Positions 9,619 to 26,760 of a stretch of DNA of 30,919 bases are shown one piece after another. The position numbers were made by a program, and so were the translations under genes. The stretch is from Candidatus Aerophobota bacterium (GTDB lineage: Bacteria; Aerophobota; Aerophobia; Aerophobales; B3-G15): positions 1-30,919 of the forward strand of contig JACUUP010000006.1 of NCBI GenBank assembly GCA_014859225.1. The letters are read 5' to 3'. The notes below the pieces were generated by a model. That model saw only the letters and a list, made by a program, of their open reading frames with translations, was not told where the DNA came from and searched no databases. Position 1 is the first letter of the stretch; each line of letters opens with the position of its first letter.

Positions 9619-10830
9619 TTACCTACTCTGAGAGGACCTTGTATAAGGATGTTCATTTTTCTCGGAAAGCAATTTTTTAATTCCCCTTACAGCTTGTCTT
9701 ATTCTCTGTTTGTTTTCCACCAGGGCAAATCTTACATATTCATCGCCATAGGCTCCAAAACCAATTCCTGGAGATACCGCTACTTTAGCTTCAGTCAGCA
9801 TGGCTTTGGAAAACTCCACCGAACCAGCACTTTGAAATTCCTCAGGTATCTTTGCCCACACGAACATAGTACCCTTTGGTTTTTCCACCTCCCAGCCAAT
9901 TTTATTTAATCCTTCCACCAGCACATCCCTTCTTGTTTTGTAAGTTGCAACTATCTTACCAACGCATTCCTGGGAAGCGTTTAAAGCAATAATTGATGCT
10001 ATTTGAATGGGTTGAAATATCCCATAATCTAAGTAGCTTTTTATTCTTCTTAAAGCAAAAACCATATTTTTGTTTCCTACCACAAAACCCACTCTCCACC
10101 CTGGCATGCTGTAGGATTTGGAGAGGGAGAAAATTTCCACCCCCACCTCTTTTGCCCCGGGGACCTGGAGAAAACTTGGAGCTTTATATCCATCAAATAC
10201 AAGGTCAGCATAGGCAAAATCATGAATAACCATCACTTCATGTTCTCGGGCAAAGTTGACCACTTTCTTAAAAAAATCTAAATCCACACAGCAGGTTGTG
10301 GGATTGTGGGGAAAAGATATAATGAGCATTTTGGGATGGGGCCAGGTTTGCTGGGTCGCTTTTACAAGCTCCTGGAAAAAATTCCCTTCATCATAAAGAG
10401 GAATGCTTCTTAAATCTCCACCGGCAATGATAACAGAGTAGGAATGAATGGGATAGGTTGGATTTGGCACAAAGACTACATCACCCGGTCCTACTGTGGC
10501 AAGAACAAGGTGTGATAATCCTTCCTTAGCGCCTATTGTTACTATTGCTTCCTCCTCAGGGTCTATTTTTACATTGTATCTTCTTTCATACCATTCAGAT
10601 ATAGCCATTCTAAGTTTTGTAATTCCGCGTGAGGCAGAGTAACGATAGTTTTGAGATTTGCGGGAGGCCTCTATTAGTTTATCCACGATATGTTTAGGCG
10701 TAAGAATATCAGGATTTCCCATCCCCAGGTCAATTATATCTTCTCCCTCCCTTCTTGCCTGAAGCTTCATTTCGTTAATGGTGGCAAATACATAAGAAGG
10801 AAGTCTTGTTATCCGGGGGAAATCTTTCAT
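9619..10830 (-). CDS. alaC: Class I/II aminotransferase, AlaC-type (glutamate-pyruvate)
   Basis: A PLP enzyme of fold type I, 403 residues. As I recall it, the sequence tracks E. coli AlaC along most of its length: [77 protein letters not shown]. Catalytic features: K238 in SLSKSYSM (Schiff base), N176-P177, D204 and Y207 (pyridine/phenol contacts), and R246. AlaC transfers amino groups between glutamate and pyruvate to make alanine. LL-diaminopimelate or aspartate aminotransferase activity is an alternative for close relatives. GGGAG lies just upstream of ATG 10830. It is followed by an MFS gene, suggesting alanine or another amino-acid product is moved across the membrane. Confidence 0.85.
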
Positions 10831-10855
10831 CTTTCATCTCCCAAATTTTTTTTAT

Positions 10856-10883
10856 AAGCTACTTATAAATAAGTTCTTGTCAA
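10856..10883 (-). promoter_or_regulatory. Candidate promoter for alaC-MFS
   Basis: On the minus strand TTGACA (10883-10878) is followed after 16 nt by TAGCTT (10861-10856). The -35 box is perfect; the -10 box is weak. The position, about 30 nt before the alaC start, is right for this gene pair. Confidence 0.45.
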
Positions 10884-10950
10884 CTGTTTTGCTTCATCTT
10901 GAAGTTTTAAGAAAGGGCTTTTAAAGTAAAGGGGACTCAGGTTACAGACT

Positions 10951-11796
10951 CTACCTTATTCCTGCTCCTTCAAGGAAATTTTCAAGGCAAAAAGGTAGGT
11001 CCTCATGATAGCCCCCCTCCAGGATGGCAAAAACTGGTTTTTCTAAACCTTTTATTCTCTCACCTATTTTGAAATAACTTTCTGTTTCTAAACTTAAACT
11101 TAGCAGGGTTTCTCTTTTATGAGCGTCAAATCCCGCAGATACAGCAATAAGTGAAGGTGAAAACTGTTTAACTTTATCCAGTCCTTTAAGGAAAAAACTC
11201 ATAAATTCTTTCTCTCCCGCCCCAGGTGGAAGGGGAAAATTTAATGAATTTCCCCTGGATTCCATACCTGTCCCGGGATAAGCTGGATACTGATGCAGGG
11301 AGAGGTATAAAACTTTCTTTTCCTGGAAGAAAATGTCCTCAGTTCCGTTACCATGATGTCCGTCAAAATCAATTATAGCTACCCTGTCAACTTTCTTTAA
11401 AGCTTTGGCTATAGCAACTGCTATATTGTTAAAATAACAAAATCCCCCCAGATAATCTCTACCGGCATGATGTCCCGGGGGTCTGAGGAGGGAAAAACTA
11501 CTTTCTCCTGCTAAAGCTTTAGTTAGTGCTTGAAGGGCACCTCCCATGGAGAGTGCTGCATACTCGTAGATATTTTCCTGGTTGGGAGTGTCAGGGTCAA
11601 AAAAATTGTTGCTTTGAACTCTTTTAAGATGCTCCGGAGTATGGATGAGGAGTATGTCATCTTCCTCGCAGGGTTTTGCTTCATTAAACTGATAGCCTTT
11701 TCTGCTAAGATGCTCGTATGTTCTTTTTACTCTTTCTGCTGATTCCGGATGACCGGGAAAACTATATCCAAGACATCTTTCTGAGAAAAAAATCAC
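10951..11796 (-). CDS. Histone deacetylase-family zinc amidohydrolase (AcuC/acetylpolyamine type)
   Basis: Class I/II deacetylase fold, about 281 residues. Counting from GTG 11796: H109-H110 in RPPGHHAG (active-site His pair), D143 and H147 in DFDGHHGNG, D224 in SAGFDAH (zinc ligands), and Y263 in EGGYHEDL. Bacterial members remove acetyl groups from proteins such as acetyl-CoA synthetase, or from acetylpolyamines. A longer frame begins at GTG 11820. I prefer 11796 because it has AGGTGA nearby and gives the usual short N-terminus (IFFSERCLGY), while the upstream GTG has no ribosome binding site. The promoter at 11844-11871 allows either. It is monocistronic; about 120 nt separates it from alaC. 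Confidence 0.85.
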   Translation of the reverse strand: MIFFSERCLGYSFPGHPESAERVKRTYEHLSRKGYQFNEAKPCEEDDILLIHTPEHLKRVQSNNFFDPDTPNQENIYEYAALSMGGALQALTKALAGESSFSLLRPPGHHAGRDYLGGFCYFNNIAVAIAKALKKVDRVAIIDFDGHHGNGTEDIFFQEKKVLYLSLHQYPAYPGTGMESRGNSLNFPLPPGAGEKEFMSFFLKGLDKVKQFSPSLIAVSAGFDAHKRETLLSLSLETESYFKIGERIKGLEKPVFAILEGGYHEDLPFCLENFLEGAGIR

Positions 11797-11843
11797 TTCA
11801 CCTTCCCCTTTTTCTATCACTTATTGTTTAAAATTTTAATGAG

Positions 11844-11871
11844 AGTATAGCTTTGTTGATGGCAATGTCAA
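11844..11871 (-). promoter_or_regulatory. Sigma70-type promoter for the deacetylase gene
   Basis: On the minus strand TTGACA (11871-11866), a 16-nt spacer and TATACT (11849-11844) give a near-consensus promoter. The predicted start near 11837 leaves about 40 nt of leader to GTG 11796. Confidence 0.65.
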
Positions 11872-12200
11872 GAAAGTACGCGTTAGCTTTGCCCCTTTTT
11901 TGTCCCTCATTTCTCCTACCCGATACCACTATCCTGAATCGCGAAACTCTCCCTTTTTATTTACTTGCCCCCTTAAAAATTCTTAAAATAAAGAGCTACT
12001 TTCATTTTTCAGTTTGTTGTCGCGTATGCTTGACAAATTTTCAATTTATGATAATCTGCTCACAAATTTTAGGAAAAAGCTTTTTTCAGGGAGGACGGTC
12101 CGCTCCTAAGGTGAAAAAGATTAAGCAAATAGAAAAAGAACAATTTTCTAAAAGATAATAAAATAAATAGAGACATCATAAATAAGCAGGAGGTAAATTG
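11872..12200 (+). other. Intergenic leader region before the fused E1 gene
   Basis: No convincing gene is seen; the one open frame here has no ribosome binding site or recognisable motif. TTGACA (12030-12035) with TAATCT 16 nt later (12052-12057) may be the promoter for the E1 gene, which would give a leader near 135 nt. A self-complementary AAAAAGCTTTTT lies at 12074-12085. The real ribosome binding site, GGAGGT (12189-12194), closes the region. Confidence 0.4.
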
Positions 12201-14567
12201 ATGGTAAGAGAGATTACTATATTGCCTGATTTTACCCCCGGATATGTTGAAGTGGGGGGAAAGATTCCTAAATTCCAGTACAAAAAATCCCTAAAGCAGG
12301 AGCTGGAGGAGGAAAGCCTCACACGTGAGGAGGCAATTGACCTTTTAAAGTGCATGCTCCTTATAAGAAATCTGGAGATTATGATCTGTGATTTCAAGGA
12401 AAAAAAAGGAGTATATGGTCCCCTGAAGTACCTTTACATTGGGGCAGATCACGTTTCCATCGGGCAGGAAGCGGTGTCTGCCGGAGCAATCTCTACTATC
12501 TCCGTTACCGATTTTATAACCAGTAACCATCGGGGACATGGAGATGCTCTGGCCAAGGGTTATTTTGCTATAAAGGGGATGGATGATGAGGCTCTCGTAA
12601 ATTTTATCACTGAGGATGAGGAAACAGTGGAGGCTCTAAGGCCTGAGACGGGGATAAGTAGCAGGGAGCAGCTGGAAAAGGAAGCTCTCCGGGTGTACCT
12701 TTTCCGGGCAATAGCAGAGCTTTTTGGGAAAGAAGCTGGTTGGTGCAGGGGAAGAGGAGGTTCCATGCACATTGCTGATTTTAAAAGGGGCCATTTGGGA
12801 GCAAATGCCATTGTGGGAGGTTCCATGGGTATGGCTGTTGGTTCTGGAATCGCCTCCCGCTACCTGGGAGATAAAAAAGTTACCCTGTGTTTTGTAGGAG
12901 ATGGTGGTTTCAATAACGGTATATCCCATGAGACTATGAACATGGCCTGTATGGCCCAGTTCACCAATGGACTTATGAATAAGAAAGAGGGTGTTCCGGT
13001 TATATTTTGCGCTGTGAATAACCAGTACGGGTATACCGGCCAGCAAAGAGGAGAAGTAACAGGGATTGATTATCTTGCAGAAAGGTGCTTTGGTTACGGT
13101 AAGGAAGGTATGCATGCAGAAGTTGTAAATGGAATGGATATTCTTGCCACCAGGGATGCAACAAAAAGAGGAGCACAAATTGCCCGAGAAGGTAAAGGAC
13201 CTGTATATCTTGAGTTCTGGTGTTCAAGGTTTAAGGGGCACAACGTAAAGGATAAACTGTTTACCAAAGAGGATGAGAGCTACCGCACCCTGGATGAGCT
13301 TAGTGCCTGGCAGAGAGTTGATCCTATAAATACCTACGCTGAGAAATTAGTGGAGGAAGGAATTGTCACCAGAGAGCAGCTGGAGAAACTGGGGCACGAA
13401 ACAAGAGAGAGGAACGAACAGATGGCCCAAAAAGCTGCAGAAGCTAAAAGCCCTGACCCTAAAACCATGTATTTTGGACTTTTCAGCGAAACCACTTCAG
13501 AGCAGGTTCCTGAGAGGTTTAGAAATGCTCCTACCCTGAAAAAACCCTCTTTCCTGGACAGAGAACCCGAACAGGAGATTACCTTCAGAGAGGCGATAAA
13601 TGAGTGTCTATTCCAGGAGATGGCAAGGGATAAAAGAGTTGTGCAGTGGGGAGAGGATGTTGCTGACTATGGAGGAGCATATAATGCGACAAAGGGTCTT
13701 CTGGAGATATTTGGAAGAGACAGAATCTTCAACACCGCCATCTCTGAGGCAGCAATTATTGGAGGAGGAATTGGTGCAGCCTTGCGAGGTCTTCGGCCAG
13801 TGATGGAGATAATGTACATTGATTTTATCCTACTGGCCATGGACCAGGTGGCAAATCAGGCGGCAAAGTGGAAGTATATGTCAGGTGGGCAACCAAGTAT
13901 CCCTTTAACCATCCGCGTAACAATCGGAGGAGGAAAAGGATATGCAGGTCAACACTCTCAAAGTCTTGAGGCAATTCTTGCCCACTTTCCCGGCCTTAAA
14001 ATTGTAGTACCCTCTGATGCCTATGATGCAAAGGGTATGCTTGCATCAGCAATAAGGGATGATAACCCGGTTATATTTATTGAACACCAGAACCTTTATG
14101 AGGGACATATTGCACGCGGCAAAGTTCCCAAAGAGGAGTACCTTGTCCCCCTGGGAAAGGCTGATGTGAAAAGAAAAGCTGATACCTCCCGGCCTTCTAT
14201 TACCTTAATCTCCTGGTCCTCCATGGTCACTGTTGCTCTGCAGGCTGCAAAAACTCTGCAGGAGGAAGGGATTGAGCTTGAAGTTGTTGATGTACGTACC
14301 CTTTTTCCCCTTGATGTAGATACAATCATCTCTTCAGTTAAAAAGACAAATAGAGTTGTTATCCTCCATCAGGCCGTTGAGTTTATGGGGTTTGGAGCAG
14401 AACTGATAGCTCAGATTCAACAACACGCATTTGATTTCCTTGATGCGCCCATTAAGAGAATCGCAGCTCCCAACACTCCTCCCCCTTCCTCTCCGGTTCT
14501 TGAGAAGGCGTTTTTGCCCAATGAGAGGGATGTTATTATGGTGGTGAAAAACTTGTTGAATCAATAA
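12201..14567 (+). CDS. Fused alpha-beta E1 of a thiamine-diphosphate 2-oxoacid dehydrogenase
   Basis: One 788-residue chain contains both E1 halves. Alpha part (about 40-440): SNHRGHGDALAKG, GRGGSMHI, the ThDP motif FVGDGGFNNG (232-240) and AVNNQYGYTG. Beta part (about 458-788): ITFREAINECL, GEDVADYGGAY, the catalytic-Glu segment TAISEAAI (E516), QHSQSLEAI (with His585) and VVDVRTLFPLD. Such enzymes decarboxylate pyruvate, acetoin or branched 2-oxoacids and acylate a lipoyl E2. No lipoyl E2 or E3 lies in the window. Residues about 121-170 form an extra acidic segment between the GHGDALAKG and ELFGKEAGWCRGRGG motifs, which are nearly adjacent in ordinary E1-alpha. Start: ATG 12201, 7 nt after GGAGGT; TTG 12198 is too close to it. 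Confidence 0.85.
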   Translation: MVREITILPDFTPGYVEVGGKIPKFQYKKSLKQELEEESLTREEAIDLLKCMLLIRNLEIMICDFKEKKGVYGPLKYLYIGADHVSIGQEAVSAGAISTISVTDFITSNHRGHGDALAKGYFAIKGMDDEALVNFITEDEETVEALRPETGISSREQLEKEALRVYLFRAIAELFGKEAGWCRGRGGSMHIADFKRGHLGANAIVGGSMGMAVGSGIASRYLGDKKVTLCFVGDGGFNNGISHETMNMACMAQFTNGLMNKKEGVPVIFCAVNNQYGYTGQQRGEVTGIDYLAERCFGYGKEGMHAEVVNGMDILATRDATKRGAQIAREGKGPVYLEFWCSRFKGHNVKDKLFTKEDESYRTLDELSAWQRVDPINTYAEKLVEEGIVTREQLEKLGHETRERNEQMAQKAAEAKSPDPKTMYFGLFSETTSEQVPERFRNAPTLKKPSFLDREPEQEITFREAINECLFQEMARDKRVVQWGEDVADYGGAYNATKGLLEIFGRDRIFNTAISEAAIIGGGIGAALRGLRPVMEIMYIDFILLAMDQVANQAAKWKYMSGGQPSIPLTIRVTIGGGKGYAGQHSQSLEAILAHFPGLKIVVPSDAYDAKGMLASAIRDDNPVIFIEHQNLYEGHIARGKVPKEEYLVPLGKADVKRKADTSRPSITLISWSSMVTVALQAAKTLQEEGIELEVVDVRTLFPLDVDTIISSVKKTNRVVILHQAVEFMGFGAELIAQIQQHAFDFLDAPIKRIAAPNTPPPSSPVLEKAFLPNERDVIMVVKNLLNQ

Positions 14568-16026: not shown

Positions 16027-16662
16027 GTGTTGAAAAAGAAAATAGAAGCAGTAATTTTTGACCTCAATGGTGTGATAATAAAATCTATTGCCAGGAAACT
16101 GGATGGGATAAACAAGATCTTTAACGTTGATTTATCACAAGAGGGGCTTTATTCTATATTTTATCCGGTTTATATGGAGGCAAGTCTGGGCAGAATAAGT
16201 GTGCAGGAATTCTGGCAAAAAATTGCTAAGAGGCTATCTTCTGGGTATGTTGTTACCGGCCGAGAGGATGATGTTTTCCTTGGTCAGATAGAGTTGAAGG
16301 AGAATGATGTTTCAGATATTCTGTCCAGTTTAAAAAGGAGGTATAAGCTGGGTTTGCTTTCTAATTTTATAAAAGAGTGGGCTTATAATCTCCTTGAAAG
16401 ATTTAAACTGAGTGAGTATTTTGATGGTATTCTGATTTCCTCTGAGATTGGAGAGAGAAAGCCCCATCTTATGCTTTATTTGAAAATTTGTGAGGCATTA
16501 AAGGTAGAGCTTGAAAAAAGTGCTTACATTGCGGATGAGGAAGAAGACCTGGTGGTGCCTGAGAAAATAGGAATGCTTCCTGTGTTTATTCCTGGGGAAG
16601 CTTTTTCTTCTAAGGTTGGAATTACCATTAAAAGTTTAAAAGAGTTGGAAAATATCCTGTAG
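16027..16662 (+). CDS. HAD-superfamily hydrolase with altered motif I
   Basis: 211 residues, HAD fold with an alpha-helical cap (about 20-90), close in style to YihX/beta-phosphoglucomutase-like phosphatases. Motif I is D12-L-N14-G-V, so the nucleophile is kept but the usual second Asp (acid/base) is Asn. Motif II is S112 (LLSN), motif III K145 (GERKPH), motif IV D170-E171 with D174 (IADEEEDL). A sugar-phosphate phosphatase would suit this locus, though the Asn could weaken turnover or change the chemistry. Start: GTG 16027 with only a weak upstream purine stretch. It follows the regulator by 36 nt and precedes the cupin by 33 nt. Confidence 0.8.
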   Translation: MLKKKIEAVIFDLNGVIIKSIARKLDGINKIFNVDLSQEGLYSIFYPVYMEASLGRISVQEFWQKIAKRLSSGYVVTGREDDVFLGQIELKENDVSDILSSLKRRYKLGLLSNFIKEWAYNLLERFKLSEYFDGILISSEIGERKPHLMLYLKICEALKVELEKSAYIADEEEDLVVPEKIGMLPVFIPGEAFSSKVGITIKSLKELENIL

Positions 16663-17207: not shown

Positions 17208-18839
17208 ATGAAAGTAAGAAAGTCGTATTTATTAATGATGGCAACGTTTTTCACGGCAAGTATGATACTCTTTTCTTTGGTAGCATACGCAGAGCCACAG
17301 GCACTTCCCGAACTTTCTGAGGAAGAACTGGCTGCCCTTTACCCTGATGCTCCTTATCCTAAACTACACTATAAATGGGATAAGTTGTATCAGGGGGAGA
17401 CCTGGAAACCAAAACCAGAGGATGTACCCAAGTGGCAACAGTTTGCTGGAGAGACGGTGTACGTGGCTACAGAGAATACCCCACCGTCCCTTGGTATGTA
17501 CAATATTCTGGATGATTTTACGAAATTAACCGGGATGAAAGTAGATATAACCCTGGATCTTATTGATGAGCTCAAGGAGAAGATCTTTCTTGATCTAAGA
17601 AGTGGTGCCGGTGGATATCACGTTAACTATGGCCAGACGGCTCCTATTGGCACTCAGGCAGCAGAGTTCTGGAGTCCCATAAATATGTTTGCAGACATGC
17701 GTACGGGAAAATCCCTGTTTCCCGACCTTCCCGACATTCCTGATATTCCTGAAGGGACAACGGTGTACGATGCCTTTACGGCCGGAAACGTTGATTATGG
17801 AGCTAAAATTTACTCCCCTGATATCTGGATTGGAATGCCCTATGACACAGCGATGTACCATATGTTTTACAGAAAGGATCTTTTTGAAAAGTACAATGAT
17901 AAATTCATTCAGGAGTATGGGAAGCCCTTGGTCATTGAAGGGATGGGTGAATATCTAACCTGGGATGACTGGTATGATATGTCCGTTTTCTTTAACAAGT
18001 ACGTGACAGAGGTAGATTACGCAATGGGTTTCGTCAATGCACAGAACTGGGCAATTAACCTTAACTTCCAGACCTTGCTGAGAGCGTGGGGAGTTAAAAA
18101 CAACGGTTTTGAAAAACTTGACCCTGTTCTGGGCTCGAGAGATCCGGGGAGATTTCTTGACTACAGTGCCGTAGAATACAAAAAGGCTCTGGATTCTCTG
18201 ATTTTTTTCAAGAAGCTCTATGATGAGATGCATCCTGACTCTGTAGTATGGGGCTGGGATGAAACTGGAAATGCCTTGTGTACGGAAAAAGTTGCCATGC
18301 TATACCAGTGTGGAGAGTATGTTCCTATCGTAGAGGACCCGACAAAATCTATGGTTGCTGGTAGAGTTGGCTACGCCGTTGTTCCCACGGGTCCCGGAGG
18401 AGCTCATGCCTATGCAGTGGGGGCTGCTCCTATTGCTGTGAATGCTACCATTCCTCTGAAAGAACAGAAGAAGGGGTATCTTTATGTTTTGTGGACGACG
18501 GGACCTGTTGCCCAGCATAAATCCTTTGAGCAGTTTTCCGGAACACCTGTGAGAGGAACAGTTTACGAGTATGCTCGCAAGAGAGGCTGGGACTACTACA
18601 CTGAAGATGGGCAAAGAGTTGTCGGAATATACCTGAAAGTCCAGGAAAAACAGTCAACAGCATATGTAGATGACTGGGTTGTGACCAAAATTCCCACTTT
18701 CACCAAGTATCTTGAGATTACCGGTGGTAACATCAGTAAGGCTCTTGTTGGAAGGCTTACTCCCAAAGCGGCTCTGGATGACATGATAACGCGTCTCAAC
18801 AGACTGCATGGGTACCCTGTGGAAATACCAAAAATTTAA
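17208..18839 (+). CDS. ABC importer substrate-binding protein (family 1-like)
   Basis: 543 residues, longer than most carbohydrate-binding proteins. A signal peptide ends near residue 28 (SLVAYA-EP); there is no lipobox Cys, so it should be free in the periplasm or anchored otherwise. Typical features are ETVYVATENTPPS at the domain start, DDFTKLTGMKVDITLDLIDELKEK, SPDIWIGMPYD, MFYRKDLFEKY and VAMLYQCGEYVPIV. Aromatic residues are plentiful (WDDWYDMSVFF, WGWDETGN), as in sugar or polyol sites. Start: ATG 17208 after GGAAGGAG. A strong hairpin follows the gene, as often seen where binding protein is made in excess over permeases. Substrate unknown; a distant relation to rhizobial GlpV-type proteins is possible but not shown. 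Confidence 0.85.
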   Translation: MKVRKSYLLMMATFFTASMILFSLVAYAEPQALPELSEEELAALYPDAPYPKLHYKWDKLYQGETWKPKPEDVPKWQQFAGETVYVATENTPPSLGMYNILDDFTKLTGMKVDITLDLIDELKEKIFLDLRSGAGGYHVNYGQTAPIGTQAAEFWSPINMFADMRTGKSLFPDLPDIPDIPEGTTVYDAFTAGNVDYGAKIYSPDIWIGMPYDTAMYHMFYRKDLFEKYNDKFIQEYGKPLVIEGMGEYLTWDDWYDMSVFFNKYVTEVDYAMGFVNAQNWAINLNFQTLLRAWGVKNNGFEKLDPVLGSRDPGRFLDYSAVEYKKALDSLIFFKKLYDEMHPDSVVWGWDETGNALCTEKVAMLYQCGEYVPIVEDPTKSMVAGRVGYAVVPTGPGGAHAYAVGAAPIAVNATIPLKEQKKGYLYVLWTTGPVAQHKSFEQFSGTPVRGTVYEYARKRGWDYYTEDGQRVVGIYLKVQEKQSTAYVDDWVVTKIPTFTKYLEITGGNISKALVGRLTPKAALDDMITRLNRLHGYPVEIPKI

Positions 18840-19147: not shown

Positions 19148-20086
19148 GTGGATAGAACTTACACTATAAGCCAGGAGAGTTTCCTTTCAAGGATTCACCG
19201 GGGAATAGCAAGGAAAGTTCCATGGTATGTATGGTGGCTTCTGCCAGGGTTGATATTATTAGGTGTGGTGACAATGCCGCCTTTTATCTGGATAATATGG
19301 ATGACCTTTCGCAAGATTTTTCTCTCTCCAACACGCCCTGATATATATGTGGGGGTAGCCAATTATATCCAGTACTTTACCGACCCTGAGGTCTATGCAG
19401 CCTGGGGAAAGATGGGTAAGTATGTTGGCGGCTCTATAGCTCTACAAATGGGACTGGGGATTGGAATTGCAATGCTGTTGAACAAGTCAAAACACGAGGA
19501 CGTGTTAATGGCGATTTATCTTGTTCCCTTGATGTTTGCTTCTGTTGTTACTGCATATCTTTATCGGGTTCTGTTACACTCCTCCTATGGACTTTACCAC
19601 TGGCTTCTGGTGACTTTCGGGATATTTTCTCACAGATCACCGAGTTTGTTTGGTAATCCTGATACAGCTTTGTGGACCATGGTGATGATAGACACCTGGC
19701 AATGGACTCCTCTGGTGATTCTTATCGTACTGGCTGGATTAAAAACTGTGCCGAGGAGCATAGTAGAGGCTGCCCGGATAGACGGGGCAGGTAAATGGCG
19801 GGTGTTTAGAGATGTCATAATTCCCTTTACTTCCCCAGCGATATTAATCGCTCTTTTGCTTCGTTTTATGGATAATGTCCGTTTTGTGGACGTGATTTTG
19901 AATACTACGATGGGTGGGCCTGCTGATGCTACCAAGACAATCTCAGTATACACATATTATTTAGCTTTCAGGCAATTTGATCTTGGCTATGGGGCAACCG
20001 TAGGTTTTCTCCTTTTGCTGGTTGTCATTTTTGCAGCGCTAATACTGACCAATGTGTTCAGAAAATACATAACAGCTGAAGGATAA
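19148..20086 (+). CDS. ABC importer permease 1 (MalF/UgpA type)
   Basis: 312 residues, six predicted membrane helices, starting with WYVWWLLPGLILLGVVTMPP (about 26-45). The EAA loop that docks on the ATPase is EAARIDGAGKWRVFRDVIIP (207-226). ANYIQYFTDPEVYAAW matches the periplasmic stretch common in sugar permeases. Start: GTG 19148, 6 nt after GAGGAG. It should pair with permease 2, 19 nt downstream, to form the membrane channel for the binding protein encoded upstream. The ATPase comes later, after two unusual inserted genes. Confidence 0.92.
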   Translation: MDRTYTISQESFLSRIHRGIARKVPWYVWWLLPGLILLGVVTMPPFIWIIWMTFRKIFLSPTRPDIYVGVANYIQYFTDPEVYAAWGKMGKYVGGSIALQMGLGIGIAMLLNKSKHEDVLMAIYLVPLMFASVVTAYLYRVLLHSSYGLYHWLLVTFGIFSHRSPSLFGNPDTALWTMVMIDTWQWTPLVILIVLAGLKTVPRSIVEAARIDGAGKWRVFRDVIIPFTSPAILIALLLRFMDNVRFVDVILNTTMGGPADATKTISVYTYYLAFRQFDLGYGATVGFLLLLVVIFAALILTNVFRKYITAEG

Positions 20087-20105: not shown

Positions 20106-20969
20106 ATGACAAAAAAAGAAACTTATCTTAGTTTTTCCAGGCTCCTGGGTATAATCGCTTTGATTATATTTGGGATATGGACCGTGTTACCCATAGTCTT
20201 CATGGCATTTGCGTCTTTCAAGATGCAGGTAGAAATATTCGCCATGCCTCGCTTTGGGGACTGGGGGGGTCTTGCCCGGTGGTTCGTATTTAAACCCACG
20301 TTTCTCCACTACAGGGAGCTGTTCGGCGGCAGAGCAGATTTTACCCGCTATCTGATCAATAGCGTGATATTGACCTTTGTGAGCACCGCCATATGTGTTC
20401 CTCTGGGGCTATTTGCCTCGTATTCTCTTTCCAGGGGGAAAATGCCTGGAAAAGATACAATCTTTTTCTGGGTGATCACTACCCGTATGGCTCCTCCGGT
20501 GGTGGTGTGTGTACCCCTTTATTTTTTGTTCATAAGATTTGGTCTCATACGGACATTCCCGGGCATGGTTCTTGCCTATACCACCTTTAGTTTGCCCTTC
20601 GCCATCTGGCTTTTGAGAGGTTTCATAGATGCTGTTCCCCGGGAAATTGAGGAGGCAGCACGGATTGATGGATTATCAAGATTGAGAGTGTTTATCAATG
20701 TGGTTATCCCTCTTATTCGTTCGGGGATTGGTGCAGTTATCATGCTGGTCGCACTTTTCTGCTGGAATGAATACCTTTTTACCCTGATTCTGGGTGGTAG
20801 ACAGTGGGAAACAATGCCTGTCCGAGTCACTGAGCTGCAAACTGCCACAGGTGTTTTCTGGGGACAGGTTTTGGCTGGCGGTACCATCGTAATTATTCCC
20901 ATGGTTATTTTTGGAATCACCGTCAGGAAGTACATTGTGAGAGGTCTGACCATGGGAGCTCTGCGATAA
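20106..20969 (+). CDS. ABC importer permease 2 (MalG/UgpE type)
   Basis: 287 residues, six membrane helices. The EAA loop is EEAARIDGLSRLRVFINVV (182-200), and NSVILTFVSTAICVPLGLFA marks the core transmembrane region of MalG-type permeases. The ribosome binding site GGAGGGG (20088-20094) lies just past the permease 1 stop. The protein ends with RKYIVRGLTMGALR, the usual C-terminal tail of this family. Together with permease 1 it forms the heterodimeric channel of the importer. Confidence 0.92.
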   Translation: MTKKETYLSFSRLLGIIALIIFGIWTVLPIVFMAFASFKMQVEIFAMPRFGDWGGLARWFVFKPTFLHYRELFGGRADFTRYLINSVILTFVSTAICVPLGLFASYSLSRGKMPGKDTIFFWVITTRMAPPVVVCVPLYFLFIRFGLIRTFPGMVLAYTTFSLPFAIWLLRGFIDAVPREIEEAARIDGLSRLRVFINVVIPLIRSGIGAVIMLVALFCWNEYLFTLILGGRQWETMPVRVTELQTATGVFWGQVLAGGTIVIIPMVIFGITVRKYIVRGLTMGALR

Positions 20970-21022
20970 TGTTTTACTAACAATACAGGCGAGGAAAATG
21001 ATCGACAAAACGTGAGTGAGTG

Positions 21023-21862
21023 ATGAGTGATGAAAAGTTTATTTTGTCAATGTATGTGGTAAGGACTTTAGCCAGGAGGGATTTTTATTCATCCCTGCGA
21101 GGTCTGGGGCTTTATATTACGACATCTGTCTCCTTTATAGTCGCTTCCTTTATTCTCAAGAATTATCTTGAGAGTATCGCCAAGAGCGAAGTTTTTGCAT
21201 CTCTTAATCCTCTGAACTCAGTTTTTTTTCTACCCATGGTAATTCTTTCCGTGTATCTTGCTCTTATCTCTGCTGTTTCCATCTCCCGGGAAAGAAATGA
21301 GGGAACCCTGGAGGTGTTATTCTACGGTCCGGTAAGTTACTCCTCTTACATTTTGAGTAAATACGTGAACAGCATGTTAAACTACGTTGTGGGAGTAGCT
21401 TTTTTTTTGGCGTACTTTTTTGGGATAGCTTTTATAACCAATCTGGGATTTTCCTATACATTAGTCGGGGCAATTTTAATGTCCATATTTTCCATATCAT
21501 GTGTGGTTAGCTTCGGCCTTTTTATTTCATCTTTTACCACGAGGGTAAGGACGTCTGTTATATGGCTGGCAGGGATATTTTTGCTTTTCTTGGGGATTCA
21601 ACTTCTGCACACTGTTTTACTGGGAATTCCCGAGGAAACTATGTTCCCCCTGATGGTTTATTTTGAGAAAAGTTTTTCTTTTGTGTCCCGGTATATAATA
21701 GGGTGGCTCTCTCCATTCTACTATATGGACAGAGGATTGGAGGCTGTTTCCTTAGGTGACCCTTATCTGTACGGGATGAACATAGTATACTGTATTATTT
21801 ATTCCGCAGTTTTGGTTGGCATTTCTATATTTGTTCTGGAGAAAAGAGGAGTGAGAGCGTGA
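21023..21862 (+). CDS. ABC-2 type permease embedded in the importer operon
   Basis: About 279 residues with six predicted membrane helices: near 31-50, 67-88, 113-135, 147-172, 180-200 and 255-275. The motif ISRERNEGTLEVLFYGPVS after helix 2 is typical of ABC-2 (NosY/exporter-like) permeases, a family distinct from MalFG. It has no EAA loop and no neighbouring ABC-2-type ATPase. Its stop overlaps the next start by 4 nt (GTGA), so the two proteins are probably made together. Possible roles are an accessory membrane partner of the importer, or a separate exporter using an ATPase encoded elsewhere. ATG 21023 is chosen over GTG 21020; neither has a strong ribosome binding site. Confidence 0.8.
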   Translation: MSDEKFILSMYVVRTLARRDFYSSLRGLGLYITTSVSFIVASFILKNYLESIAKSEVFASLNPLNSVFFLPMVILSVYLALISAVSISRERNEGTLEVLFYGPVSYSSYILSKYVNSMLNYVVGVAFFLAYFFGIAFITNLGFSYTLVGAILMSIFSISCVVSFGLFISSFTTRVRTSVIWLAGIFLLFLGIQLLHTVLLGIPEETMFPLMVYFEKSFSFVSRYIIGWLSPFYYMDRGLEAVSLGDPYLYGMNIVYCIIYSAVLVGISIFVLEKRGVRA

Positions 21863-23247
21863 GAAAGGTCACCTTTTTGCTCACCGTGATGTTCGGATTA
21901 TTTTTATATCTTTCCATTGCAGGATGGGCTCAAAAACCTGTTATGAAAGAACAACTTGTGTACAAGCAGAGATATTTTAACGGCAAGGGATATGGAGGAA
22001 AAGGTTATCCGGATGCATTTACTCCACCATCTGAGGATACTATTTATCTCATAGCAGATCACGATAATGCTGTATCTGCCTGGATGAGTCTTGTGTATTT
22101 CTGGCCGGTTACAGGTAAGTACCGAATTAACTGGGAGGGCTTAAACCAGCCGGCAGAAGGGACACTGGAAATTTTAAAGGAGGGAAAGGTTATTGATTCC
22201 TTGGAAAAAACGGATAACTGTATCTTTTACCTGGAAGGATATACCGGGGGCGTATCGCGGCTTTATAGCGGTGAAAAAGCAAAGCTGATGCGGGAAGAGT
22301 TTGAGAAGGCGGTGGATTATTTCTACTACCGGGTAGATAAATGGAAAGAACAGATGCAGGAATACACCAGGCAGCAAGCCGAACTCCAACAGGAGATGGA
22401 AAGGTTAGGCCAAAAATGGAGAGAGACTGGAGAGGAGCCCACGGGGGCAGAGATAGAGGAATTAGTAAAAAAGAGAACAGATAAGCCAGAACTTCCCCAA
22501 GCTCCGGAAGCTTACGTGACCGAGCTGTGGAAAGATTATATCATAAATTTACCTGCCGGAACCTACAATATACGAATAAGGACCAAGGAGGGAAGTATAG
22601 TCCAGGATAGCGAGAAGAGACTGGTTCTTTTCAGTCCGAGAAAGACCGAGATGGTGGGATATGAGATAGTGCTGGACACCAGATGGGCGCAGCCGGAACT
22701 GTGCCAGGACCCTGCCAGCATAATTTATGTGGATTTAGAATATGTAAAGAAAAACCACAGCCTTTACTTTAAGCCATTTTATCAGAATGAATACAATGAG
22801 TTTTATTATAATAAACTGGCAGACCCTCAGAATTTTGGGAGAAAGAAGAGGTGGAAATGGATTCAATCCGGGAATATAAAAGATGGAGTTTTAGTCTTTT
22901 TGAATGGGAAGAAGGTGGTAAAAGAATCACAGAATGTTGCCTATTATGTAAGAGAGGTTGAAGGCGAAAAGTATACATTTGAGATTATAGAACACAGTAA
23001 AGATAATGTTCCTTCAGGCGCAGGCCCCACTTTTGGAGGACATAAACTGGAGTTTACCCCTGATGTGATGGGTAGAAATCGCCAGATTAACTTGAATAAA
23101 GAAAACACCTATGATTTTTTCAAACAAGCAAAAAGGGAGATCCGGGTGGTGAGTAAGGAAACATCCAGATATCTTTATCCTTTCGCCCTTTTTCCTCTGG
23201 TGATAGGTCTTGTAAGTTTTGTGCAGAGAAGAAGAAAGTTAAAATAA
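21859..23247 (+). CDS. Large exported protein with coiled coil and C-terminal membrane anchor, function unknown
   Basis: Not recognised. Layout of the 462 residues: signal peptide 1-24 (FLLTVMFGLFLYLSIAGWA); beta-rich domain about 58-135 (TIYLIADHDN, GKYRINWEGL, GTLEILKEGK); charged coiled coil about 140-205; second beta-rich domain about 216-430 with LPAGTYNIRIRTKEG; one transmembrane helix about 439-455; then a basic cytoplasmic tail, RRRKLK. It should therefore sit outside the inner membrane held by its C-terminus. It overlaps the ABC-2 permease by 4 nt and lies 32 nt before the importer ATPase. Stable complex formation with the ABC-2 permease is a fair inference; a carbohydrate-binding role is only a possibility. 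Confidence 0.7.
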   Translation: MRKVTFLLTVMFGLFLYLSIAGWAQKPVMKEQLVYKQRYFNGKGYGGKGYPDAFTPPSEDTIYLIADHDNAVSAWMSLVYFWPVTGKYRINWEGLNQPAEGTLEILKEGKVIDSLEKTDNCIFYLEGYTGGVSRLYSGEKAKLMREEFEKAVDYFYYRVDKWKEQMQEYTRQQAELQQEMERLGQKWRETGEEPTGAEIEELVKKRTDKPELPQAPEAYVTELWKDYIINLPAGTYNIRIRTKEGSIVQDSEKRLVLFSPRKTEMVGYEIVLDTRWAQPELCQDPASIIYVDLEYVKKNHSLYFKPFYQNEYNEFYYNKLADPQNFGRKKRWKWIQSGNIKDGVLVFLNGKKVVKESQNVAYYVREVEGEKYTFEIIEHSKDNVPSGAGPTFGGHKLEFTPDVMGRNRQINLNKENTYDFFKQAKREIRVVSKETSRYLYPFALFPLVIGLVSFVQRRRKLK

Positions 23248-23279
23248 AACTTTTTATTTTATAATAAAAGGGGGAAATT

Positions 23280-24386
23280 ATGGCTGAAGTAGTCCTCAAC
23301 AATGTGTGGAAAACGTACGGAAAAGTAGAGGCAATAAGAGGTTTAAGCCTTTCCTGTAAAGACAAGGAGTTCCTTTCATTTCTGGGCCCTTCCGGATGCG
23401 GTAAGACCTCTACTCTCAGAATGATAGCGGGTCTTGAAGAGATATCCTCAGGAGATATCTACATTGAGGGTATTCGTGTGAACGATGTGGACCCTTCAAA
23501 AAGAAACATCGCCATGGTATTTGAGACCTACGCTCTTTATCCTCATAAAACCGTATTTGAAAACATAGCTTACCCGCTTCGTATAAGAAGAGAGCCGACC
23601 AGCAAGGTCAAAGAAAAAGTGATGCATGCAGCCCAACTGCTCCAGATTGAGGAACTTCTTGACCGACGCCCGGGAGAATTAAGTGGAGGTCAACGACAGA
23701 GGGTAGGTATAGGAAGAGCCCTGGTGAGAGAGCCGAAGGTGTTCCTCATGGATGAGCCTATATCACATCTGGACGCCAAACTGCGTGAGTACATGAGGGC
23801 AGAAATTAAACATCTTCAAAAGGACCTGCAGGAGACATTCATTTATGTGACCCATGATCAGCTGGAGGCTATAACTATGGCTGACAGGGTAGCGGTACTG
23901 AATTTAGGTGTACTGCAGCAGCTTGACACCCCGGCAAAGTTATTTAACCAGCCGGCGAACGAGTTTGTCGCAGGGTTTATCGGGAGCCCCCCCATAAATT
24001 TTCTCCAGTGTGAGTTAATCCCGGAAGGTGAAAAATGGAAGCTGAAACACCCCGCTTTTGAACTGCTACTCACTGATAAAATCAAGGCTACTTTGAAGGA
24101 GAAGCTGCCTGCTTTTACCGGCTCGTATCCGGTAAAACTCGGGTTTAGACCGCAGTTCTCCACTGTGGGCCACCAGAAACAAGGGCCCGCTGACATAAAA
24201 TGTAAGGTATTTATCCTGGAGCCTCTTGGAACAGAGATGATTGTCCATTTACTGATTGGAAAGGACAGGGTGAAAGTACTTGCCTCCATGGATTTTGAGG
24301 CGAGCATAGGAGACAATGTCTTTAACAATCTTGATATGGACAGAATTCACATATTTGATGGTGAGACAGGGAAAACCCTGTTCTAA
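23280..24386 (+). CDS. ABC importer ATPase, MalK/UgpC-like, with Q-loop Glu
   Basis: 368 residues: nucleotide-binding domain (1-235) plus a C-terminal TOBE-type regulatory region. Walker A is GPSGCGKTS (36-44), signature LSGGQRQR (134-141), Walker B VFLMDEP (D158, E159), and H-loop H192 in VTHDQ. The Q-loop reads MVFETYALYPH, so position 82 is Glu where MalK-type proteins usually have Gln. The D-loop is ISHLDAKLR, where SNLDAKLR is more usual. Everything needed for ATP hydrolysis is otherwise present. It is the only ATPase in the operon and most likely drives permeases 1 and 2; whether it also serves the ABC-2 permease is open. Ribosome binding site AAAGGGGG precedes ATG 23280. Confidence 0.9.
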   Translation: MAEVVLNNVWKTYGKVEAIRGLSLSCKDKEFLSFLGPSGCGKTSTLRMIAGLEEISSGDIYIEGIRVNDVDPSKRNIAMVFETYALYPHKTVFENIAYPLRIRREPTSKVKEKVMHAAQLLQIEELLDRRPGELSGGQRQRVGIGRALVREPKVFLMDEPISHLDAKLREYMRAEIKHLQKDLQETFIYVTHDQLEAITMADRVAVLNLGVLQQLDTPAKLFNQPANEFVAGFIGSPPINFLQCELIPEGEKWKLKHPAFELLLTDKIKATLKEKLPAFTGSYPVKLGFRPQFSTVGHQKQGPADIKCKVFILEPLGTEMIVHLLIGKDRVKVLASMDFEASIGDNVFNNLDMDRIHIFDGETGKTLF

Positions 24387-26016: not shown

Positions 26017-26760
26017 ATGAGAAAAGTTATCTTATATATGGCACTACCAGTGGTTGCAGTTATTTTCCTGGTGGTGCTTTCTGGGTATTTCGGTCCATCG
26101 GGTGTGCAGTATGCAACTGTGGAAGGTAGAGTGGTGGATAAATTATCACAGGGATGGGTATGGGGAGTGCAAATTACGGTGGGTGGAAAAACGACCAGTC
26201 GATATGTGAGTGAAACTTACTATCTGGATGAAATAAAGCCTGGTTCGTACACTCTGGTAGCAATTGCTCCAAATTACTATCAGTTTAAAAAAGATGTTAT
26301 ATTAAAAGAAGGAACCAACGTTGTGGATATCTCCATAGAGGGAAGAGAAATTCCCGGGCTGGAAGGTATAGAAGTTTTTACCAGTACTATAGATGAGGGA
26401 ATAGAGCTGGAGATTGTGTTTCTGGATAGCGAGTGGGAGATAATAAAACGCTATCCCTGCCTCCCCCTGCGTCTTGAGGGGACACTTTTTCTGGATGTAG
26501 GTAGAGTGAGGAGCGAGAAGGGGAGAAAAGTATTTGAAGGGCCGATAGAGCTTTTCTGGGACACAGATGCTGCTCTGGGTAATAATAAGGGCATAATTCC
26601 CTGGGAAAAAATAGACATAAAAAGAGAGGATGAAGACAAAGAGAAGAAGGTTATCATCTTGAAAGATTACGGCATCCTTGAATTAATACTTCACACCCCT
26701 CAGGGAGATTTTAAACAAACAAGGATGGGGGTGCCTCTTTTTCAGGTCCCCGAAGGATAA
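26017..26760 (+). CDS. Membrane-anchored protein with carboxypeptidase-regulatory-like domain
   Basis: 247 residues. An N-terminal hydrophobic helix (5-24, ILYMALPVVAVIFLVVLSGY) acts as signal or anchor. Residues about 33-108 resemble a carboxypeptidase regulatory-like beta-sandwich: ATVEGRVVDK, GVQITVGGK, YYLDEIKPGSYTLVAIAPNY, KEGTNVVDISIEG. The remainder (113-247) is beta-rich and unrecognised. Such domains often serve as spacers or binding modules on surface proteins. It breaks the run of cytoplasmic enzymes in the locus and, like the anchored protein at 21859, may be part of the envelope side of the uptake system. Ribosome binding site GAGGGA (26005-26010) precedes ATG 26017. Confidence 0.65.
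   Translation: MRKVILYMALPVVAVIFLVVLSGYFGPSGVQYATVEGRVVDKLSQGWVWGVQITVGGKTTSRYVSETYYLDEIKPGSYTLVAIAPNYYQFKKDVILKEGTNVVDISIEGREIPGLEGIEVFTSTIDEGIELEIVFLDSEWEIIKRYPCLPLRLEGTLFLDVGRVRSEKGRKVFEGPIELFWDTDAALGNNKGIIPWEKIDIKREDEDKEKKVIILKDYGILELILHTPQGDFKQTRMGVPLFQVPEG

Follow-up and report, generated by a model that had tools for sequence, protein, structure and literature searches.

Gene content of the window

The DNA analysed here (the window) comprises 30,919 nucleotides of contig JACUUP010000006.1 from a Candidatus Aerophobota bacterium, and is part of a 1.8 Mb MAG of 273 contigs that is 91% complete. The following genes are relevant to the present study:

17208..18839, + strand: substrate-binding protein (SBP) of an importer, 543 aa; 28% identity (E 7e-41) to an SBP of genome G006
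19148..20086, + strand: MalF/UgpA-like importer permease; BPD_transp_1, E 7.9e-19; EAA loop EAARIDGAGKW
20106..20969, + strand: MalG/UgpE-like importer permease; BPD_transp_1, E 1e-16; EAA loop EEAARIDGLSRL
21020..21862, + strand (GTG start; ATG at 21023): ABC-2 permease, 280 aa; ABC2_membrane_2, E 1.4e-16
21859..23247, + strand: ANCH, exported protein with a C-terminal membrane anchor, 462 aa; orthologues lie directly 3' of the permease in relatives
23280..24386, + strand: MalK/UgpC-like ATPase, the importer motor; UgpC model 410 bits, cut-off 432
26017..26760, + strand: CPD-like protein; 45-54% identity to the CPD gene that most relatives in the order have between the genes for ATPase and permease

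The SBP, MalF, MalG and MalK genes constitute an ordinary importer set of the MalFGK/UgpAEC (CUT1) sugar type. The ABC-2 permease and ANCH, whose frames overlap by 4 nt, are flanked by MalG on the 5' side and MalK on the 3' side, with gaps of 32-50 nt and all genes on the + strand. MalK is followed by a glyoxalase-like gene, an acetamidase-like gene and then the CPD-like gene. Open reading frames and Pfam thus agree with the first-pass annotation, which had placed an ABC-2 permease and an overlapping, anchored exported protein between MalFG-like permeases and a MalK-like ATPase. The importer setting it described also stands, but the third subunit, CPD, had been overlooked. Between positions 16600 and 27100, promoter-like and terminator-like sites were no more numerous than in shuffles.

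The SBP gave no Pfam match at E 0.1 and no NCBIfam match. It is family-less in these collections, though homologues in relatives sit beside MalFG genes; the G006 homologue adjoins MalF/MalG homologues (locus L146). As a separate observation, contig C232 of genome G000 carries two MalK pairs (10536-12744 and 21703-23911) with identical scores, about 11.2 kb apart, which represent either a tandem duplication or an assembly repeat.

The inserted pair and a third subunit

The inserted permease scored 61.0 bits against Pfam ABC2_membrane_2 (cut-off 27.2) and is assigned as an ABC-2 (type V-like) permease. Its match to NCBIfam GldF is weak (35.6 bits, below the 288.5 cut-off), and the Pfam scan returned no BPD_transp_1 match, so that it does not classify as an importer subunit. 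The window encodes no ABC-2 ATPase, as the first-pass annotation had stated, and MalK is the only ATPase adjoining the pair. The lack of a cognate ATPase gene alongside speaks against a complete ABC-2 system at this locus, not against the identity of the permease.

Neither Pfam nor NCBIfam assigns ANCH to a family at cut-off. In its AlphaFold model (mean pLDDT 65), two beta regions and a long helical segment (138-204) are framed by one helix at the N-terminus and another at the C-terminus (445-461). Fold searches with this model yielded Ig-like matches of a generic kind only (best VIA Z 4.5), including cell-adhesion, antibody and S-layer Ig domains. Because of the model confidence and the generic nature of the matches, ANCH is described here only as beta domains with a long helical segment. 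PDB sequence profile searches gave no match for the permease and chance-level matches only for ANCH.

The CPD-like protein is predicted to contain one N-terminal TM, a transthyretin/CarboxypepD_reg domain and a second beta sandwich (model pLDDT 84). The first domain superposes on the transthyretin-like domain of carboxypeptidase D (5aq0; Foldseek TM(target) 0.80, rmsd 2.0). The match to PF13620 has an E of 1.9e-5 but remains below the cut-off (25.3 of 32.3 bits), and the CarboxypepD_reg assignment is based on the fold. A PDB sequence profile search additionally matched CPD to a TonB-linked receptor, over residues 13-119 of the latter (E 5e-4). The CPD gene is placed three genes downstream of the pair, separated from it by importer and other genes.

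A recurrent ATPase-CPD-permease-ANCH system

A single ANCH sequence queried against the contigs retrieved no relatives; an alignment query retrieved 28 loci. ANCH profile searches were performed in other groups, and the flanks were fetched and scanned in six frames. On the basis of these sequence comparisons, the pair is a copy of a three- to four-gene ABC-2 system consisting of a DrrA/GldA-type ATPase, often CPD, the permease and ANCH. The system is distributed over Aerophobota (the lineage of the window), Atribacterota, Spirochaetota, Chloroflexota and ANGP1. The window sequences scored 406, 628 and 335 bits against the permease, ANCH and CPD profiles, of which they are themselves rows. The window thus holds three of the four subunits, and what is lacking is an ATPase gene upstream of the permease.

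The pair is present in 15 of 16 other genomes of the window's order, where it belongs to a compact four-gene cluster (ATPase, CPD, permease, ANCH) wherever the contigs allow. The cluster of G008 (L044) has no CPD gene between ATPase and permease. This copy is also the most divergent of the order, and its contig stops close to where ANCH ends. An ANCH orthologue directly follows the permease in every relative whose upstream sequence is long enough.

ATPase adjacency was counted where 2.6 kb or more of sequence was available upstream of ANCH, requiring the ATPase to lie on the same strand, and phylum names were taken from the record titles of the seed loci. The ATPase was found directly upstream in 52 of 52 such relatives: 11/11 Aerophobota (the copy on contig C119 included, see below), 18/18 Atribacterota, 13/13 in the Chloroflexota-class set, 5/5 ANGP1 and 5/5 Spirochaetota. 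The window copy is the only exception, and the unusual gene order reported by the first-pass annotation is thereby confirmed. Its proposal that the pair might be an added envelope module of the importer is not borne out: in the loci with enough upstream sequence the pair always stands next to its own ABC-2 ATPase, essentially the outcome that the annotation itself had named as evidence against this view. The CPD gene was present in 10 of 11 Aerophobota clusters and in all Atribacterota and Spirochaetota clusters counted; the same flank scan did not find it in Chloroflexota or ANGP1 clusters. A limited literature search identified no paper on an ATPase-CPD-permease-ANCH system.

A complete paralogue and the origin of the window copy

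The same genome encodes a complete four-gene cluster (C119:6362-10223) in the order ATPase-CPD-permease-ANCH, with the ATPase at C119:6362-7321. This cluster sits after GroEL and TldD/PmbA-type genes rather than in an importer operon. It shares all subunits of the window copy, with BLAST identities of 46% for the permease, 40% for ANCH and 36% for CPD (about 40-43% and 36-38% as ranges for the latter two), but keeps the ATPase gene that the window copy lacks. The window permease is 54% identical to that of G004.

Trees were calculated for ANCH, permease and CPD singly and for their concatenation (961 columns). The window copy has an ancestry separate from that of the copies of its own family. 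In the concatenated tree it groups with G004_f3 and part of f6 (support 96/96), and the AU test rejected its placement with the own-family copies (p 4e-5) as well as with the C119 copy (p 5e-38). All three single-gene trees put it outside the own-family clade, with weakly supported placements. As this holds for each of the three window genes, CPD is considered to belong with the pair despite its distance. The terminal branch of the window copy is long (0.98 compared to a median of 0.2, about five times the median), so that its exact sister is unsure.

The G+C content of the three genes (0.40-0.43) falls between the extremes measured for other genes of the window (0.36-0.47), and GC3 amounts to 0.41-0.44, compared to 0.33-0.35 for the C119 copy. 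The trees and the branch length fit two origins: the copy may have been transferred from a different family of the order, or it may go back to an early duplication accompanied by losses; in either case fast evolution would have followed. The long terminal branch could also reflect decay or a relaxation of constraint, but the three frames are all intact.

Energisation of the window permease

With moderate confidence, and on the strength of sequence comparison, we regard the pair and CPD as a second, divergent ABC-2 copy that resides in an importer operon, presumably lost its ATPase gene and is probably powered in trans by the ATPase on C119. Observations in favour of this assignment are that the C119 ATPase is the sole member of its family in the assembly, that the permease retains putative interface residues, and that the ATPase shows changes at the Q-loop. 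As to the first, the next best ATPase in the assembly is 38% identical, compared to 63-81% identity between the C119 ATPase and orthologues in the order. Regarding the permease, 18 of 19 near-invariant residues are kept in the putative N-terminal interface and coupling-loop regions as opposed to 57 of 72 elsewhere, albeit these are small counts and the regions were assigned by position. Moreover, where 14 relatives are invariant the window permease has nine changes, and all of them lie outside both regions. Finally, of the positions that are invariant among ten other Aerophobota ATPases, only four are changed in the C119 ATPase, and two of these (K82T and Y84H) flank the Q-loop glutamine; for residues 80-92 this corresponds to a hypergeometric p of 0.022, calculated post hoc. 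In TarGH, the Q-loop is located near the coupling helix of the permease (PMC11971408). That an ATPase of this type may be encoded apart is illustrated by GldA (Fjoh_1516) and GldF/GldG (Fjoh_2722/2721) (PMC9127263).

Another ATPase may drive the window copy instead, either a cognate one missing from the assembly or a further ABC-2-like protein of the genome. We judge this unlikely. At 91% completeness and in 273 contigs, a second ATPase could have escaped assembly, but ATPase and permease occur together in all copies elsewhere with enough sequence, which makes it unexpected for an ATPase alone to be missing. Three of the four ABC-2-type ATPases that score next in the genome have a permease-like frame alongside (judged by eye). 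The fourth, an ABC-2-like ATPase encoded at C191:7107-7712 (L064, G000; about 250 aa), has no adjacent permease and would be a candidate; still, it is only 38-40% identical to the family ATPase. The C191 gene lies between FolK-like and YicC-like genes (named by eye), and its product is a possible free-standing ATPase.

It is rather improbable that the three genes are a decaying duplicate, left by transfer or rearrangement and devoid of a transport function. The missing ATPase gene, the displaced CPD gene and the long terminal branch would agree with decay, as would the 16 of 91 near-invariant permease positions that are changed, compared to 2 to 9 in five relatives tested alike. Three intact frames, an ordered spacing within the operon, an ANCH alignable over its whole length and the retained interface and coupling-loop residues speak against it.

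The first-pass annotation had also considered an exporter that shares the MalK-like ATPase, so that one ATPase would serve importer and ABC-2 transporter. MalK lies directly next to the pair in the same gene run, and multitask MalK/MsmX-type ATPases serve several type I importers (PMC7658222). However, the multitask cases in that source are type I importers, and the putative interface regions of the window permease resemble those of relatives paired with ABC-2 ATPases. Furthermore, MalK is needed by MalFG, which keep their EAA loops; its identity to the ABC-2 ATPase is 32-33% where the two align. As the genome has a cognate ATPase on C119, MalK sharing is disfavoured and appears distinctly improbable. 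Still less probable is its extended form, in which a single MalK-type motor serves MalFG as well as the inserted ABC-2 permease and the envelope proteins that accompany it, coupling uptake physically or energetically to the exporter. An assembly artefact, i.e. a chimeric contig of unrelated pieces, is conceivable for a fragmented MAG and an arrangement known from one genome only, yet barely credible: all genes share one strand, the gaps between them are short, two frames overlap by 4 nt, the G+C content is in the range of the other window genes, and two joins would be required around the pair, with more around CPD.

Returning to energisation by the C119 ATPase, the transporter may be envisaged as follows. 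Two permease subunits would form the membrane channel, and ANCH and CPD, as membrane-anchored beta-domain proteins on the outer face, would receive or guide the exported substrate. ATP hydrolysis would most likely be supplied in trans by the C119 DrrA/GldA-type ATPase, with MalK driving MalFG. Co-transcription could then ensure that this exporter variant is made when the substrate of the importer is present. As a guess by analogy with other ABC-2 systems, the exported substrate might be an envelope glycolipid or polymer.

Comparison with known transporters

One of the closest parallels may be drawn to GldA/GldF/GldG of gliding bacteria, which likewise combine a DrrA/GldA-type ATPase, a permease (weakly GldF-like in the window) and a partner protein anchored in the membrane. 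The gene for GldA lies away from those for GldFG, which is the situation proposed for the window copy. The equivalog level is reached by neither protein: the C119 ATPase attains 243.2 of 402.6 bits in the GldA model, and the permease stays below the GldF cut-off given above. In contrast to GldAFG, the window system adds a CPD subunit, and its ANCH lacks a Pfam or NCBIfam family at cut-off.

DrrAB/NatAB-type ABC-2 exporters also have one permease gene, and the ATPase best fits the DrrA subfamily (263 bits, cut-off 312), with a sub-threshold DrrA1-3_C domain. The window system differs in its two extra envelope subunits, CPD and ANCH, and in the absence of an ATPase gene next to the window copy. 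A precedent for one ATPase serving several permeases is provided by MsmX-type multitask ATPases, which are described for type I importers in the source consulted (PMC7658222), whereas the sharing proposed here would take place between ABC-2 permeases.

Association with importer operons

Within the window's order, none of six loci with enough flank has an importer permease within 9 kb of the pair. Importer loci of the order that are related to the window's (L146, L147, L148, L150 and L151) carry no ABC-2 permease of the family described here and lack the pair. On these two results, the pair as a general module of this importer type is rejected.

Co-occurrence of pair and importer, which the first-pass annotation had proposed as a check, is thus not observed in the order of the window but is found elsewhere. 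In raw counts, the complete module, with its own ATPase present, is located near sugar-type importer permeases in 4/4 ANGP1 and 4/8 Chloroflexota loci, in Caldatribacterium and in one spirochaete; the three importer-linked cases in Atribacterota look like one syntenic Caldatribacterium event. Owing to these cases a functional link to uptake operons is possible. Overall, the earlier interpretation of the pair is partly supported.

The ANGP1 clusters also hold genes for nucleoside hydrolase, PfkB kinase and an ADP-ribosylglycohydrolase-like protein, some of which occur in several clusters of Chloroflexota as well; these genes were named by sequence similarity and motif reading. Four ANGP1 loci (L141, L142, L145 and L089) display the order ADP-ribosylglycohydrolase-like, SBP, MalF, MalG, nucleoside hydrolase, ABC-2 ATPase, permease, ANCH, PfkB and nucleoside hydrolase, and two Chloroflexota loci (L139 and L126) have similar gene sets. 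The ANGP1 cluster resembles a nucleoside or ribose-type uptake operon containing an ABC-2 module; no MalK was seen there. The importer association, which is not universal, suggests a role during the uptake or use of sugars or nucleosides.

Implications

The analysis exposes an ABC-2 system that spans several bacterial phyla and whose exported partner matches no Pfam or NCBIfam family at cut-off. Its window copy contains a naturally occurring ABC-2 permease that has no ATPase next to it while a cognate one is encoded elsewhere in the genome, which makes motor sharing between ABC-2 permeases testable. That the complete system recurs in nucleoside or sugar import operons, both in ANGP1 and in Chloroflexota, gives a clue to its substrate.
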